Part shown: in pieces, positions 16,538-44,054 of the stretch
Layout of the letters: each line of letters opens with the position of its first letter
Position numbering within the stretch: position 1 is the stretch's first letter
Source of the DNA: Gammaproteobacteria bacterium
GTDB lineage: Bacteria; Pseudomonadota; Gammaproteobacteria; Enterobacterales; Psychrobiaceae
Reading direction: 5' to 3'
DNA length: 64,000 bases
Assembly (NCBI GenBank): GCA_013214945.1
Contig: JABSRT010000004.1
Location: 186,001-250,000 of the forward strand
Made by a program: the position numbers and the translations under genes
The notes under the pieces: generated by a model
The model's database searches: none
Told to the model about the DNA's origin: nothing
The model's input: the letters and a program-made list of their open reading frames with translations, nothing else

Positions 16538-18463
16538 TTAATTGTTTTTATAAATAGGTAAGTAAATGTCGAACTTACTGCCTTTACCGATAATTGAACT
16601 AACATCAATCCGGCCGTTATGATCATCAATAATCGATCGAACAATATGCAACCCAAGGCCCGTACCTTTACCGACTGGTTTAGTGGTAAAGAATGGATCG
16701 AAAATGTTTTTTAAATCAGCTGGGCTGATCCCTGAGCCATTATCTTCAAAACTAATATTTATTTCGTCTTGGACTATATTTGATTTAATTGAGATTTGAC
16801 CACTATTTTTAATCGCATGAGATGCATTAACCAGCATATTAATAAACACTTGGAGTAATTTCTGAGGGAAACCCATCACGTTAACTTCTGCATTGAGACA
16901 AGTAACAATTTTTACTTTATATTTTAGTTCATTGGCAACCAGCGTCAGGCTTTGCTTGATTAACTTATCAATACATATCGGCTCAGGGTTTTCACTATCA
17001 ACATGAGCATAATTACCTAAATCTTTGATAATTACATTGATCCTTGCTGTACCTTGCAATGATGCCGCAATTAAAGGCTCGATATCATTAACAATATAAT
17101 CTAAATCGTGTGCTTGATAGAAGGTCTTAGCTGGTCCATTTTGTTCAACGGTATTAACGAGCTTTATATATGCGGTGAGAGATTTAACATAGTCGGTCAG
17201 CACATTAAGGTTACTGTCAATATAGCCAACAGGGTTGTTTATTTCATGGGCAATGCCAGCTGACAATTGTCCAATTGACGCCAACTTTTCAGCATTAACC
17301 AGCTGTTGATTAAGGGCTGATAAGGCTTTTTGGCTATGCTTTCTTTCATTGATATCGCTGATTGTTAGTAAATAACTAACGGACTCTTTGAGCGTGATCT
17401 TTTGCCCTGAGAATTCTACGTAGGGATTTTTAAAGTCAGGTGCCAGTAACGACTCTTCCATGCTGGTTAATAGCGTTTGGCTATTAAACTGACCGTCTAG
17501 CGTCGCAAGCACCGGCAAGAAAATAGCAATATTTTGATTAATGATTTGATCCTTTCTCCTTGAAAACAACTTACTTGCTTGTGGGTTACACTCTTGTATT
17601 ACCCCTTGGCTGTTTAATAGTAATAATGAGCAAGGAATAGTATTCATTATGGTATTTATCTGCTGATTGATGTGGCTGACATTAAGCCGTTCTTGTTCTG
17701 CTTTTTGTTTTTCGATGGTTATTCGCTGGGTAAAAGATTGAATAGCAGCAGATAAGACAATAATTTCTGTCGGCGCATTGGTCTGCCTAAACTCGACACT
17801 TTTCGCGCCATCGTTAGACTGTTGGGCTACTGCGGTAATGTTTTCAATCGGCTTAACAATATATTTGCTAAACCCTGTAACAATCAAAACAATGAGGATA
17901 AGGTACAAAGAGATTATTATCCAAGTAAGGCTGGTTAAACGCCTGTTAACGCTTAATAACGTCTGATGTAAAAAAGTGTTTTCCTGTGATGCTTGGTTTG
18001 ATAATTTTTCAAATGTAGCGACATAATCGGTCGTTAAGATGTCGGACTGCGCGATAGTGGCCTGCCAAGTTTGATTATCTAACATCGACAGGTGTGCAAA
18101 AGAATTTATTATTAGCTCATTATCTTTGATAGTACTAATAAGCTGTCGTACTAACTTGTCGCTACTATTGTTTTTTTCTTGCACCTCAAGGGTCCGCAGT
18201 GTTTTTATCAGCTGGTCTGATTGCGCATTAATGCCCTGGGCTAAATAGGTTTGTTTCCCCGAAAAAAGCAGGTCTTGGGTGGTTAACCAAACTTGTGACA
18301 TGGTTGAAATGTGTTCAATGGTTTGCACCAAGAGTCGAGATTCAAAATGGGCACGCGATATGTCTTCTGCTTTTTGGTATTGACTCCATAGCGTTGAAAA
18401 AATGATCATTGCCGATAAAAGGGTTGAAACTGCTAATAACTGATTACAATTAGAAATCTTCAT
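16538..18463 (-). CDS. Orphan membrane sensor histidine kinase with PAS domain
   Basis: This 641-residue kinase has TM1 at about 8-26, a periplasmic helical sensor region of about 150 residues, and TM2 at about 179-198. HAMP (200-255) and PAS-like (265-370) regions follow, then HisKA with H406 in SAGIAHEINNPVGY and a full HATPase. N-box (MLVNASHAIK), DNGSGI, PFFTTKP and GTGLGL are all intact, so it should autophosphorylate. No response regulator is adjacent. It is the last gene of an apparent operon behind an outer-membrane barrel and a small periplasmic protein, separated from the latter by 41 bases. That suggests these supply or shape its periplasmic signal. Confidence 0.9.
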   Translation of the reverse strand: MKISNCNQLLAVSTLLSAMIIFSTLWSQYQKAEDISRAHFESRLLVQTIEHISTMSQVWLTTQDLLFSGKQTYLAQGINAQSDQLIKTLRTLEVQEKNNSSDKLVRQLISTIKDNELIINSFAHLSMLDNQTWQATIAQSDILTTDYVATFEKLSNQASQENTFLHQTLLSVNRRLTSLTWIIISLYLILIVLIVTGFSKYIVKPIENITAVAQQSNDGAKSVEFRQTNAPTEIIVLSAAIQSFTQRITIEKQKAEQERLNVSHINQQINTIMNTIPCSLLLLNSQGVIQECNPQASKLFSRRKDQIINQNIAIFLPVLATLDGQFNSQTLLTSMEESLLAPDFKNPYVEFSGQKITLKESVSYLLTISDINERKHSQKALSALNQQLVNAEKLASIGQLSAGIAHEINNPVGYIDSNLNVLTDYVKSLTAYIKLVNTVEQNGPAKTFYQAHDLDYIVNDIEPLIAASLQGTARINVIIKDLGNYAHVDSENPEPICIDKLIKQSLTLVANELKYKVKIVTCLNAEVNVMGFPQKLLQVFINMLVNASHAIKNSGQISIKSNIVQDEINISFEDNGSGISPADLKNIFDPFFTTKPVGKGTGLGLHIVRSIIDDHNGRIDVSSIIGKGSKFDIYLPIYKNN

Positions 18464-38463: not shown

Positions 38464-39432
38464 CTATTTATGATAATCAAGACAGGTATTAACTTCATTC
38501 TTTGAACCTAAAATAACCGCGACCCGTTGATGAATTTGGGTCGGTTCTATTTCCATAATCCGCTCGTAACCAGTAGATGACACGCCACCAGCTTGTTCCA
38601 CTAAAAAGCTCATTGGGTTAGCTTCATACATTAAACGTAATTTGTATGGCTTTTCTGGGTTTTTGGTATCAGTTGGGTAAGTAAATATGCCGCCACGGGT
38701 TAACACACGATGGACATCACCAACCATTGCGGCAATCCAACGCATGTTGAAGTTTTTATCACGCGTGCCAGTATCGCCAGCGAGTAAGTCTGCAATATAG
38801 TTTTGCATCGCTGGTTGCCAGAATCGCTGATTAGACATATTAATGGCAAATTCTTGGGTGTCTTCACTGATGCTCATTTGCTCGTTAGTCAGCAAAAACT
38901 CACCAATGGTATTATCAAGCGTGTATTGGCGAACGCCTTTACCTGTGGTTAAAACCAACTGGGTTGACGGACCGTATAAAACGTAACCGGCGGCTACTTG
39001 CTGATGGCCAGGTTGCAGAAACATTTCTTCGTTAGCACCGCTCATGCCTGCTGGCACTTCCATGATTGAAAAAATAGTACCAACTAAACTATTAATATCA
39101 ATGTTTGACGAGCCATCCAGAGGATCGAAACACACTAAATAACGACCGCCGTCATTACCTGCGACAATCGTGTCTTCTTCTTCAGAGGCAATAGCGCGCA
39201 CTAAATCAGACTCTAATAAGGTGTCTTTAATTAGCTGGTTAGATATAACATCTAACATTTTTTGGGTTTCACCTTGAATGTTTTCATCTAAGGTTGAACC
39301 TAAAATTCCGGCCAGTTCACCTTGATGAAGCCGAAAAGAAATTTCTTTGCACGAAGCCATTAAGGTATTAAGTAGCGAAATTAAATCTAAATCAACATTA
39401 TCTTTTTTTAGTACGGGCACAAAGCGTTGCAT
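38464..39432 (-). CDS. fbp: Fructose-1,6-bisphosphatase class I
   Basis: FBPase catalyses the gluconeogenic dephosphorylation of fructose-1,6-bisphosphate. The 322-residue protein has the metal-binding ASEEED (82-87) and [10 protein letters not shown] (103-112), and [12 protein letters not shown] near the C-terminus. It fits a glyoxylate/gluconeogenic lifestyle together with glcB nearby. A pair of 15-bp direct repeats lies just upstream of its start. Confidence 0.96.
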
Positions 39433-39476: not shown

Positions 39477-39605
39477 CTGCCCATATAATAACACCATAAC
39501 GAGATTGTTTTTAGCGCAAGTTTTTAGTTAATGATAAATAAAACTATTGTTTGATTTACTTAATGCAGTATATTGAATTACTTAGAATTTATATGAGCTT
39601 AATTG

Positions 39606-41105
39606 ATGGGGAGCATTTTCGGTAATCATAGTTTAATTGGCCGACGTTTTATTGCATACACTGTTTTATTTAGTTCGTGTCTCGCCCTTATTTTCACTCT
39701 GCTTCAGGTGCAAGTTGGATATCAGCACGAGCTAGAAAAACACAAGTTAAACCAAGAGCTTATTAAGAATAGTTTGTTGCAAAGTTTAGCGCAAAGTGTC
39801 TGGACATTTGACGACGCGCAAATATATTCACTGCTGCAAGGCATGGTGAATATTCCGATGATTGAACGGGTATCACTTAGCCTGCCTGATAACGTCAAAT
39901 ATAACGTCGGTCAAATTCAATCAAGTCAAATTGAAGAATTGTACTTTAAGGTGACTTATGCTGAAAAAGTAAATAAAAATATCAAATTAGGGAATTTAAC
40001 TGTTTATTCCAGCATGGACGATACTTATCTTTATATACTCAAATATTCCGCGCTGATGCTTTTTCTTAACCTGACAAAAACCGGATTAGTGATTGGTTTT
40101 ATGTTTTTCTTGATAGATCGCTTAATTGGCCGCCATCTGTTTAAAATAAGTCGACACTTATATCATTTTAAAGATAGTAATCAAGCGATGCCATTGGTCT
40201 TAAACCGTCGTAATTTTGTTGAAAATGATGAATTAGAACTGGTGGTTAAAGCACTTAATAACATGCAAAAAAATATTGAATTTGAGCGTAACCGAGCCCA
40301 ACGAGAGGCGCAGCGCCGTGAATCATTGCAGCAACAGATTATTGATCAATCAGAACAGGTATTAACGCTGGAGCGTAATGTTGGCTTAGCGGAAATAGCA
40401 GGGACCTTGGCTGATGAACTAAAGCAACCGTTGCGCAAGATACGTGATTACTCACAATTGTGTGGAAAAATGTTGCAAGAATCGGTTGTTGTTCCCGGTG
40501 TCTTAGTCAATGTGATTGAAAAATTGAACGAGCAAGCAACCGTGGCGACAGATATTTTGGCACGATCACAAAATGTTTTAATCAATACCCAGCCAACGCT
40601 GCAGAGTATAGATATCAATCAAGTGCTCAGTTTGGTCGTAAAGTTAGTCGATTATAATCTCAAAGACGCACAAGTAATGTTGATTCACCACGATCAGCAT
40701 AATGAATTATGGGTCATGGCGGACCAGTTACAGTTAGAGCAAGTGCTGATCAATTTAATTCGCAATGCGATAGATGCATTAACCGAGCAGCCGCAAGGGA
40801 TCCGATTGATTGAAATTACCACTTGGAATGAGGGGGAAACTGTTTATCTTAAAGTTGAAGATAATGGCGCTGGTTTTAATGTCGATTCCGCCAGTGAACT
40901 GTTTAAGCCATTTTTTACCACCAAAGAGCAAAGCATTGGCATTGGTTTGAGTATTTCTCAAAACTTGATTGCGGCGATGAAAGGAACAATAAAAGCACGT
41001 AATCGACTTGAGCGTGGCGCTTGTTTCACTGTTTCTTTGCCACAATCGAGCAAGCTATTGTCTGAGCCCGTGAGTCTAAAGTCGAATTTATTGACGAGTA
41101 GTTAA
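39606..41105 (+). CDS. Histidine-kinase-like membrane protein with the phospho-acceptor His replaced by Asp
   Basis: This 499-residue protein has TM1 at about 14-34, a periplasmic sensor (35-145), TM2 at about 146-171, a HAMP-like and coiled-coil linker (175-255), then a HisKA-like helix and a HATPase. The H-box reads LADELKQPL where kinases have A-H-E-L-N-Q-P-L; the His position is D270 (codon GAT at 40413-40415). The ATPase looks intact: NLIRNAIDAL, EDNGAGF, PFFTTKEQ and GIGLSIS. It therefore probably cannot autophosphorylate in the usual way and may signal allosterically. ATG 39606 follows a TTG at 39603; neither has a strong ribosome binding site. No receiver gene is adjacent. Confidence 0.85.
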   Translation: MGSIFGNHSLIGRRFIAYTVLFSSCLALIFTLLQVQVGYQHELEKHKLNQELIKNSLLQSLAQSVWTFDDAQIYSLLQGMVNIPMIERVSLSLPDNVKYNVGQIQSSQIEELYFKVTYAEKVNKNIKLGNLTVYSSMDDTYLYILKYSALMLFLNLTKTGLVIGFMFFLIDRLIGRHLFKISRHLYHFKDSNQAMPLVLNRRNFVENDELELVVKALNNMQKNIEFERNRAQREAQRRESLQQQIIDQSEQVLTLERNVGLAEIAGTLADELKQPLRKIRDYSQLCGKMLQESVVVPGVLVNVIEKLNEQATVATDILARSQNVLINTQPTLQSIDINQVLSLVVKLVDYNLKDAQVMLIHHDQHNELWVMADQLQLEQVLINLIRNAIDALTEQPQGIRLIEITTWNEGETVYLKVEDNGAGFNVDSASELFKPFFTTKEQSIGIGLSISQNLIAAMKGTIKARNRLERGACFTVSLPQSSKLLSEPVSLKSNLLTSS

Positions 41106-41198: not shown

Positions 41199-42827
41199 TT
41201 GCCAAAATTTTTAACTAATATATTGATAGCTTGTACAATATTGATAACTGCCGGATGTTCAACAATAGGGCAAGATCAAACCAAGTTAACAACGCCAATG
41301 GCTAATCAATCACACCATGATGCTAAAATGGTCGGTGATTACAGCGAACAGAAAATCGTAGTTGCACCAGAATTGCCGCAAAAAATTACGCGAGTAACGA
41401 GTAAAAAATTAAGCCCACAGCAAGTTGATAATTTGTGGTTACGCGTTGCAATGCAGATGAACATGGACCAGCCAAGTAATAAGCAAATTACGGCTCAGCG
41501 TAAGTGGTATTTAAAGCATCCAAGTTACTTTAACCGAGTATCTAAGCGAGCTGAACCCTTTTTATATATGATTGTTGAGCAACTTGAACAACGCGGCATT
41601 CCGCTTGAGCTTGCGTTGTTACCCATTGTTGAAAGTGCGTTTGATCCCTTTGCATATTCACATGGTCGTGCGTCAGGCATGTGGCAAATTATTCCAGGAA
41701 CCGGCAAGCGGTTTGGTTTGGCCCAAAACTGGTGGTATGACGGCCGTCGTGATGTGCCAGCATCAACCAAAGCGGCTTTAGATTACTTGGAATATTTAAA
41801 TCGATTCTTTAAAGGAAATTGGCTGCATGCGATTGCTGCATATAACTCAGGCGAAGGTCGGGTTAATCGAGCAATCAAAAAGAATCGCAAAGCGGGCAAG
41901 CCAACCGATTTTTGGTCATTAGATCTACCAAAGGAAACTAAAGATTATGTGCCAAGATTATTGGCATTAGCGCAAATTCTAAAAGATCCAGCGCAATACA
42001 ATCTGCAATGGCCAACGATAGACAATCACGCTGTCGTCAGTCTAGTCGACACTAAGTCACAAATTGACCTGGCCTTTGCTGCCAAAATCTTAGATATGGA
42101 GCTTAACGACCTACACAAATTAAACCCGGGTATTAATCGTTGGGCAACCGCTCCTAATGGCCCGCATGTTTTGCTTATACCTAAAGATAAAGCACACCAT
42201 TTTAAGCAGCAACTTAATAAAACAGCCAAGTCTCAACGCGTAAATTGGGTTCGTTATAAAATTAAAGCCGGTGATAGTCTTGGTTTGATTGCACAAAATC
42301 ATCAAACCACGTTGGCGGCGATAAAAGATGTTAACCAGATTAAATCAAGTAACATTCGCGCTGGTAAGTATTTACTTATTCCGATTTCAGCCAATAAGCT
42401 AACTGACTACAAACTGACTTCTAATGCACGATTAGCCACTAAACAGGCTAAAAACAGAAGCGGCAACAAGTTAAGCCATGTGGTGAAAGCTGGCGATAAT
42501 TTTTGGGATTTGGGACGTAAATATAAAGTAAATCATCGTTCTATCGCTAAATGGAATGGCATGGCACCTAGAGATCCATTACGTTTGGGCCAAAAACTGG
42601 TGATTTGGACCAAGCAAGCGAGCAAGCGCAATAATAGTAGCAGTAGCGCCATTATGCGCAACATCACTTACAAGGTTCGCAGTGGCGATTCAATTGGGCT
42701 GATTGCACAAAAGTTTAGCTTAAAGATAGCCGACGTGATCCGTTGGAATTCTTTACAGAATAAAAAGTATTTACAACCGGGACAGAAGCTAAAGCTAAAG
42801 ATTGATGTGACTCGCACCAATTCATAG
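41199..42827 (+). CDS. mltD: Membrane-bound lytic murein transglycosylase D with three LysM repeats
   Basis: This lipoprotein cleaves peptidoglycan glycan strands. The signal peptide ends in lipobox ITAG/C20. A transglycosylase domain follows, with the catalytic Glu in LPIVESAFDP near residue 145 and the ASGMWQIIPGTGKRFGL and AYNSGEGRVNRAI motifs. Three LysM domains bind peptidoglycan, each with an AGDS/AGDN/SGDS core (about 350-395, 425-470 and 495-540). The gene starts with TTG at 41199: no ATG lies upstream of the lipobox, and AGAG stands eight bases before it. A 36-bp palindromic terminator follows. Confidence 0.92.
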   Translation: MPKFLTNILIACTILITAGCSTIGQDQTKLTTPMANQSHHDAKMVGDYSEQKIVVAPELPQKITRVTSKKLSPQQVDNLWLRVAMQMNMDQPSNKQITAQRKWYLKHPSYFNRVSKRAEPFLYMIVEQLEQRGIPLELALLPIVESAFDPFAYSHGRASGMWQIIPGTGKRFGLAQNWWYDGRRDVPASTKAALDYLEYLNRFFKGNWLHAIAAYNSGEGRVNRAIKKNRKAGKPTDFWSLDLPKETKDYVPRLLALAQILKDPAQYNLQWPTIDNHAVVSLVDTKSQIDLAFAAKILDMELNDLHKLNPGINRWATAPNGPHVLLIPKDKAHHFKQQLNKTAKSQRVNWVRYKIKAGDSLGLIAQNHQTTLAAIKDVNQIKSSNIRAGKYLLIPISANKLTDYKLTSNARLATKQAKNRSGNKLSHVVKAGDNFWDLGRKYKVNHRSIAKWNGMAPRDPLRLGQKLVIWTKQASKRNNSSSSAIMRNITYKVRSGDSIGLIAQKFSLKIADVIRWNSLQNKKYLQPGQKLKLKIDVTRTNS

Positions 42828-42928: not shown

Positions 42929-43534
42929 TTAGGCATGGCGTTTTAACTGTGGTACCGGGGTTAAATAAGCTGGGCGTGCTGATTTTAAATAATGGATATC
43001 ATCATAACTTGGTTTGCCCTGAGGTAACTTTAAACGCTGCTTACTCAAATATGGGCGAGCGTTATGGGAAATCATTAACTCAATTTCGCTATTTCCTTGC
43101 TCGCCTTGGCGCGTTTGGCTGTAATAATCTATTGGCATTAAGATGCCTGAGCTGACCAAACTTTTGACATCGGATTCATCACTTGGCAACCATAAGGTGG
43201 TTTTACGCTGTAAAAAGAACTCGCGCAATACCGCACGTTCGCCACTGACTAGGGTTTTGATTCTATTTTCAATTTGCTCAACTTGTTGGCTCTCTAAACT
43301 GCTGGCTCTTAGTTGTTTCAGTCCCGAGCTAACAATATCAATCAACAGATAACTTGAGCTAACGATAAAAAATATTCCGACAAAATGGGCATAGTTGTCG
43401 ACCATATAGTTTAGTTTTAATATCGCACCGATATTTGTTGGTACGAACAGGATCAAGGCGCTAGCTATTGCCAGCCACAGCATACCGTGGAATAGGTAAT
43501 GAGACGGCTGTTTGATAGACTGATCTTTCCACAT
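42929..43534 (-). CDS. Superinfection-exclusion-B-like (SieB family) membrane protein
   Basis: This protein of 201 residues has two N-terminal membrane helices (about 15-35 and 48-68). A cytoplasmic domain contains SGERAVLREFFLQRKTTLWLP followed by a SSGIL motif. This layout and the E+VLREFF core fit the SieB family, named after a P22 protein that blocks growth of other phages. Chromosomal copies in marine gammaproteobacteria have no proven role. ATG 43534 has GGGG upstream and is preferred to GTG 43564. It is a single gene, not within a prophage that I can see. Confidence 0.72.
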   Translation of the reverse strand: MWKDQSIKQPSHYLFHGMLWLAIASALILFVPTNIGAILKLNYMVDNYAHFVGIFFIVSSSYLLIDIVSSGLKQLRASSLESQQVEQIENRIKTLVSGERAVLREFFLQRKTTLWLPSDESDVKSLVSSGILMPIDYYSQTRQGEQGNSEIELMISHNARPYLSKQRLKLPQGKPSYDDIHYLKSARPAYLTPVPQLKRHA

Positions 43535-44054
43535 AATAAACCCCAAATGACAAGAAATTGTCACGTAATTAAATTCTTATTCATAACAAGCAATATTTGT
43601 TCCTATTTTTAAGTTTGTAATAAATAAATGCTTAATTCATTATTTAACTGGTTGTTTTATGCATTGTTTTATTCGTTACTTATCGTGGTTAACTACACTA
43701 ATTTCAATTCCTTTATCTGATTTAGCCCGCTGAAAGCGGCAACTTTGTGCCTGAATCTTTCAGCAGTGAGCTTACTTGAGCGGCAAATTTTAATTTTAGT
43801 GATAGCGACGGCAGGTTCGCGGTCGGTAAATATGGTGAATGTTAAGTGTCTTTATCATTTTTTGTGTGAATGCCTATTATTGGTCAAACGAATGTATGAA
43901 AATATAAAATGCTTTATTTGTATTAAATAACAGATAGTTAAGGCTTTTATTTTGTTTTGTCTGGCATGGTTTGCCCGATGGGCGTTCATCGCTTTTTCAG
44001 CCAAGACAGGCTATTATTTTTAAATATTCATCACAATAAATTTTGAGGTTTTAC
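43535..44054. other. 520-bp AT-rich region between the SieB-like gene and glcB
   Basis: Contains one hairpin with perfect arms GCTGAAAG (43729-43736) and CTTTCAGC (43757-43764). The sequence is otherwise AT-rich with no gene I can support. Promoters of both divergent genes should lie here. A glcR/iclR-type operator is not recognisable by eye. Confidence 0.5.

Follow-up and report, generated by a model that had tools for sequence, protein, structure and literature searches.

Genes and Domains at the Locus

The stretch of DNA analyzed here (64,000 nucleotides, referred to as the window) carries a gene for a sensor protein of the histidine kinase type in which the position of the phospho-acceptor histidine is occupied by aspartate (table 1). 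The reading frame contains no internal stop codon, and an alternative in-frame TTG is located at 39603, just before the ATG. The gene is flanked by a divergent gene, which we take from its sequence to be fbp, and by a convergent chromosomal gene of the SieB family. A gene encoding an SLT domain and three LysM domains (MltD-like, 41199–42827, + strand) is located between the pseudokinase and the SieB-family gene; it is absent at that place in the related genomes G001–G006 and G008 (G007 is unreadable there).

Table 1. Features of the pseudokinase locus (positions in the window).
Feature	Position	Strand	Evidence
CHASE5 sensor histidine pseudokinase, 499 aa	39606..41105	+	ORF, Pfam, orthologues
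CHASE5 periplasmic sensor domain, aa 39–143	39720..40034	+	Pfam, E 1.6e-11
Degenerate dimerisation/phosphotransfer (DHp) region, aa 251–325, predicted two-helix hairpin	40356..40580	+	Model, absent HisKA match, Foldseek to histidine kinases
Asp270 codon GAT, at acceptor-His position of His-bearing orthologues	40413..40415	+	Sequence, alignment
HATPase_c (GHKL) ATP-binding domain, aa 373–480	40722..41045	+	Pfam, E 1.3e-21
N box NLIRNAIDAL	40752..40781	+	Alignment
G1 box DNGAG	40860..40874	+	Alignment
F box FKPFFTTK	40902..40925	+	Alignment
G2 box GIGL	40938..40949	+	Alignment
Fructose-1,6-bisphosphatase-like gene (fbp), divergent neighbour marking the conserved site	38464..39432	-	Synteny
SieB-family (PF14163, super-infection exclusion) chromosomal gene, convergent conserved neighbour	42929..43564	-	Synteny, Pfam

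The protein matches the CHASE5 family (PF17149, 44.5 bits, cut-off 27) and HATPase_c (77.5 bits, cut-off 26.4) with the N, G1, F, and G2 boxes all present. No Pfam match was found in it to HisKA (PF00512), even at E ≤ 1, or to a PAS domain. The H-box reads GTLADELKQPL, in agreement with the initial annotation, which had described the protein as a pseudokinase with Asp270 in the H-box, intact ATP-binding motifs and an intact reading frame. Residues 209–327 of the window protein contain no histidine at all, which rules out a shifted acceptor in the dimerisation helices. Both the acceptor histidine and the HisKA match expected of a functional HisKA sensor kinase are thus missing from the sequence. 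Another sensor kinase in the window (16541–18463, - strand) offers a useful contrast, as it keeps the histidine (AGIAHEINNPV) though its HisKA score of 16.4 bits is below the cut-off.

In an AlphaFold model of the window protein (mean pLDDT 75.2, pTM 0.41, used for local folds alone) a long helix (residues 209–291), a turn, and a second helix (residues 297–327) are predicted at the position of the DHp hairpin, followed by a GHKL-like alpha/beta domain. Of 339 Foldseek matches (E ≤ 0.001), the best 50 are all to kinases or proteins resembling kinases, including DivL (4q20) and the NifL–NifA complex (9qq6). The predicted fold is kinase-like.

Loss of the Acceptor Histidine Across the Genus

A first search for orthologues among 78 relatives found matches at E ≤ 1e-30 in 14 genomes, including that of the window. 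A profile of nine members was then compared with 394 genomes drawn from the order and returned a tight best group of 14 (E of 1e-133 or better, with the G001 sequence partial) that is separated by a gap from the next match at 7e-58. The group consists of the window's genus (G000, G001, and G004–G008), genus g13 (four genomes), and family f10 (three genomes). Nine genomes of the window's genus were sampled, and a readable H-box is present in seven of them; G003 yields no more than 111 C-terminal amino acids, next to the end of a contig, and the gene is missing from G002.

None of the seven readable genus orthologues has the acceptor histidine. The residue is Asp in the window protein, Gln in two relatives (G004 and G008), and Asn in four (G001, G005, G006, and G007). 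All seven orthologues beyond the genus (G020, G044, G063, G082, G097, G163, and G185, from two other families) keep the histidine in the motif LAHELNQPL and align with the window protein over its whole length at 31–33% identity. Their acceptor codon is CAT in six cases and CAC in one, making the single CAT-to-GAT change proposed in the initial annotation plausible. The outcome that would have refuted the annotation did not occur, as the readable genus orthologues lack the histidine. Among the seven, however, Asp is confined to the window genome, so the conserved feature is the absence of His and not the presence of Asp.

The absence of His in the genus is not a chance pattern: the histidine is present in 16 out of 16 kinase loci outside the family (L082–L097, from 30 loci returned out of the many more matches of the profile search) and, in the window's own genome, in five out of five kinase loci with an alignment across the box (nine of 35 other matches were fetched). 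A scan of the genome contigs returned no close orthologue, only 19 loci at 25% or less each over the full length. The genus-wide pattern rules out a strain-specific mutation or a sequencing slip. A new conserved phospho-acceptor Asp was likewise rejected, given N or Q at the same site in six relatives; Asp as an acceptor in the window protein alone would be chemically possible, and the relatives with N and Q argue against it. Other histidines occur in the DHp helices of most genus relatives, none of them common to all seven.

The remaining motifs are retained. The N, G1, F, and G2 boxes are kept in all seven genus orthologues, save for a His that replaces the first Asn of the N box in G004, and Glu271, directly after the acceptor site, is invariant in all 14 sequences. 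The reading frame is open to the stop codon in the window, G004, G005, G006, and G008 and open up to the contig edge in G007; stops flagged by the alignments in G008, G003, and G005 are terminal stops that the alignments overrun. The sequences have the kinase architecture of a bacterial pseudo-histidine kinase, with the loss of the acceptor histidine shared across species.

In a phylogenetic tree a single branch (support 97/96, 99% of 200 bootstrap trees) separates the His-less sequences from the others; calling the His-less group a clade presumes a root outside it, the root of the tree being a drawing aid. The tree is further limited by weak support for the His-bearing group (60/83), one very long outgroup row, and the partial G001 sequence. 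Codon parsimony requires four base changes if the ancestor of the genus had His and five if it did not (three topologies). Whether it was lost once or repeatedly, the histidine is gone from every readable copy in the genus.

Loss of the Adjacent Response Regulator

The pseudokinase is located between the divergent fbp and the convergent SieB-family gene in G004, G005, G006, and G008. Synteny is one-sided in G007 (fbp side) and G003 (SieB side), and in G001 each side is found on a separate contig. In the complete genome G002 the fbp and SieB-family genes are approximately 415 bases apart (L066:5323–5736) and no remnant of the pseudokinase was identified in this interval by tblastn or in the list of open reading frames.

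In all seven His-bearing orthologues a receiver gene follows next downstream on the same strand (one was scanned and the other six were judged by sequence). The scanned regulator carries Response_reg and GerE domains, which we take to be the make-up of FixJ. No receiver gene is present beside the genus copies where the downstream side is readable, and no orthologue of the regulator was found in the nine genus genomes (E ≤ 1e-20; three of the genomes are less than 90% complete). The single match of this search, 38% over the receiver of a 471 amino acid frame in the window's own genome, is not an orthologue. Overall, the adjacent response regulator was lost along with the acceptor histidine in the genus: the His-bearing CHASE5 kinases of the seven genomes have the histidine, a HisKA domain (in the two that were scanned), and a next-door regulator, whereas the window protein has none of the three. 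A nearby cognate regulator is not a strict feature of a functional HisKA sensor kinase, as orphan kinases exist. The locus contains no conserved neighbour that hints at a partner, such as the true kinase that the initial annotation proposed the protein might inhibit by dimerising or modulate allosterically.

Constraint on the Individual Domains

For the comparison of constraint, four spaced sequences were taken from the His-less and four from the His-bearing group. The mean identity between pairs is 41% in the His-less versus 42% in the His-bearing group for the ATPase domain, 36% versus 72% for the DHp region, and 53% versus 45% for the sensor; a second His-bearing set gave 45%, 72%, and 45% for the ATPase domain, DHp region, and sensor, respectively. 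The number of invariant columns (His-less versus His-bearing) is 11 versus 42 out of 75 in the DHp region, 34 versus 37 out of 146 in the ATPase domain, and 48 versus 38 out of 145 in the sensor. Fisher tests were set aside because they assume that columns are independent of one another and take no account of the tree. Nineteen positions of the ATPase domain are invariant in both groups, and 32 DHp positions that are invariant in the His-bearing group are not invariant in the genus. Near-equal identity in the ATPase domain, lower identity in the DHp region, and higher identity in the sensor together indicate that the phosphotransfer domain alone has lost much of its constraint. Between subclades of the genus, residues 1–145 are the best conserved part of the protein.

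The His-less proteins diverge fast. The window protein is 39–49% identical to five genus relatives whose fbp products are 85–90% identical to its own. At an fbp identity of 84–86%, His-bearing pairs are 61–68% identical and His-less pairs 40–47%, by a rough yardstick in that the fbp of the compared groups is just 42–45% identical to that of the window. This divergence would fit a slow decay, in which a kinase made useless by the loss of its regulator drifts toward loss. The absence of the gene from G002 and the declining HisKA score would fit as well: two scanned His-bearing orthologues reach 39.9 and 43.7 bits, G008 reaches 28.8 and G005 16.7 (cut-off 26.9), and G004 (E ≤ 0.01) and the window protein give no match. 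Decay is nevertheless unlikely, as five complete copies remain open to the stop codon and the G007 copy to the contig edge, the ATPase and sensor domains are under constraint about equal to or above that of the His-bearing group, and the subclade with Asn at the acceptor site (G005–G007) has conserved its DHp region anew. In this subclade the DHp region is 93–100% identical, compared with 69–90% for the ATPase domain and 90–92% for the sensor, and dN is 0.05–0.13 with saturated synonymous sites (saturation of synonymous sites affects most pairs, and the dN/dS rate is therefore stated qualitatively alone). The combination of a re-conserved DHp region and low dN favors a newly acquired use over ongoing decay in G005–G007, the subclade in which this pattern was read. 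The earlier view that the gene is not in simple decay thus gains support.

A Kinase-Like Protein That May Signal by Contact

Because the histidine is lost, autophosphorylation of and phosphotransfer through an H-box histidine can be ruled out from the sequence of the window protein, which probably signals by protein contact rather than by phosphate transfer. Starting from the loss of the histidine and the regulator, the intact ATP boxes, the retained open frames, and the changed constraint, all read from sequence comparisons, we consider it fairly likely that a CHASE5 two-component kinase has become an orphan that signals as a nucleotide-bound contact pseudokinase. The ancestor would have been the sensor kinase of a pair formed by a CHASE5 kinase and a FixJ-like response regulator. 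In the genus, the partner regulator is gone and the acceptor histidine is replaced by D, Q, or N, and the protein would have been retained as a sensor that is anchored in the membrane and presumably dimeric. A signal from the periplasm would be read by the CHASE5 domain, adenine nucleotide would bind to the intact GHKL domain, and both together would determine how the DHp helices are arranged. The output of these helices may be a stoichiometric contact with a signaling protein, be it a true kinase, a receiver, or some other target, as in DivL or NifL. By analogy with these proteins, retention of the ATP boxes and the sensor suggests a conformational switch that is read through direct contact. 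The absence of the gene from the complete genome G002 and the fast divergence count against this explanation.

An alternative use of the intact ATPase domain would be in a heterodimer with a true histidine kinase, in which the domain would phosphorylate the histidine of the partner in trans and the protein's own DHp region would accept no phosphate. The near-equal number of invariant ATPase columns in the two groups and the invariance of Glu271, as though catalysis still mattered, are in line with such a role. We regard it as quite unlikely, given that the DHp helices needed for pairing diverge to 28–41% identity between the subclades of the genus, that the synteny comparison revealed no conserved partner kinase adjoining the pseudokinase, and that no CHASE5 partner common to the genus was found, other CHASE5 proteins being present in just two of the nine genus genomes. 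If it were true, the kinase of a two-component pair would have been repurposed in a single genus as a subunit dedicated to trans-activation, coupling a signal sensed in the periplasm by CHASE5 to another pathway.

The residue at position +4 after the acceptor matters for phosphatase activity. As a phosphatase-only or phospho-receiver-binding module, the protein would dephosphorylate or sequester a regulator that another kinase has phosphorylated. This reading is also quite unlikely, even though the Glu-x-x-Gln after the acceptor site is kept in the window protein and G004 and the histidine is described in one report as not essential for HisKA phosphatase activity (PMC12632262): the phosphatase role becomes less likely because the polar +4 residue is Gly, Val, or Ala in five of the seven genus orthologues, and the 32 DHp positions that have lost their invariance in the genus speak against a kept receiver-docking face.

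Comparison with Known Pseudokinases

The contact pseudokinase that we favor has parallels in DivL and NifL. DivL, a pseudo-histidine kinase of Caulobacter, resembles the window protein in that its acceptor histidine is replaced while the N, G1, F, and G2 boxes are kept. However, the acceptor site of DivL is Tyr550 (Ala in one species) whereas that of the window's genus varies between D, N, and Q, and DivL combines PAS sensors with the receiver partner DivK and controls CckA, whereas the window protein is an orphan with a CHASE5 membrane sensor. Judged by sequence, the window protein is thus not a member of the DivL family proper, having D/Q/N in place of Tyr and CHASE5 in place of PAS. Conserved ATP boxes are no proof of tight nucleotide binding since DivL keeps the boxes and yet binds TNP-ATP weakly (PMC4211667). 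NifL of Azotobacter is likewise kinase-like, with a GHKL domain that is reported to bind ADP/ATP, and controls its partner by direct contact with no phosphotransfer (PMC11509896, PMC12540587). The NifL model TIGR02938 matches residues 315–476 of the window protein at 65.9 bits, far below its cut-off of 242.45, which places the protein outside NifL; NifL furthermore has PAS domains and the partner NifA, in contrast to the orphan membrane sensor in the window.

A ChrS pseudokinase from evolved Corynebacterium glutamicum is described as inactive and still able to modulate signaling via the paralogous kinase HrrS (PMC9491836). It differs from the window protein, as it is a frameshifted and truncated variant of an evolved strain with a lesion in the ATPase domain and not at the histidine, and heterodimerisation of the truncated form was not seen. 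The hybrid kinase CCNA_03265 of Caulobacter is reported to miss the conserved histidine of its kinase domain (PMC11481889), but unlike the window protein it has a receiver of its own, and its authors allow for a nearby histidine to serve. PhyP was dropped as a precedent, as it keeps the histidine and has a degenerate ATPase domain (PMC5898713). HisKA domains without the histidine are uncommon: in a sample of 76,471, a 2025 paper counts 722 (0.9%) that lack it (PMC12632262).

Bacterial pseudo-histidine kinases are an already recognized kind of protein, of which the CHASE5 group is a further member; no paper on this CHASE5 group was found in the open literature. The group has an unusually clear evolutionary record, as relatives preserve both the paired state with His and the orphan state without it. 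A lost histidine in a single sequence is indistinguishable from decay; here the paired state, the orphan state, and the domain-wise change of constraint can be read across related genera, providing a test case for the change from kinase to pseudokinase. A survey that relies on HisKA matches as its starting point would presumably miss such proteins because the DHp regions of the window protein, G004, and G005 are below the HisKA cut-off.

A divergent open reading frame of 116–119 amino acids is located upstream of the His-bearing kinase (L051:9047–9400, - strand; L077:1034–1384, - strand; L079:3019–3378, + strand). It is receiver-like by eye, the L051 copy having no Pfam match at E ≤ 0.01, and possibly represents a pseudo-receiver of the ancestral system.
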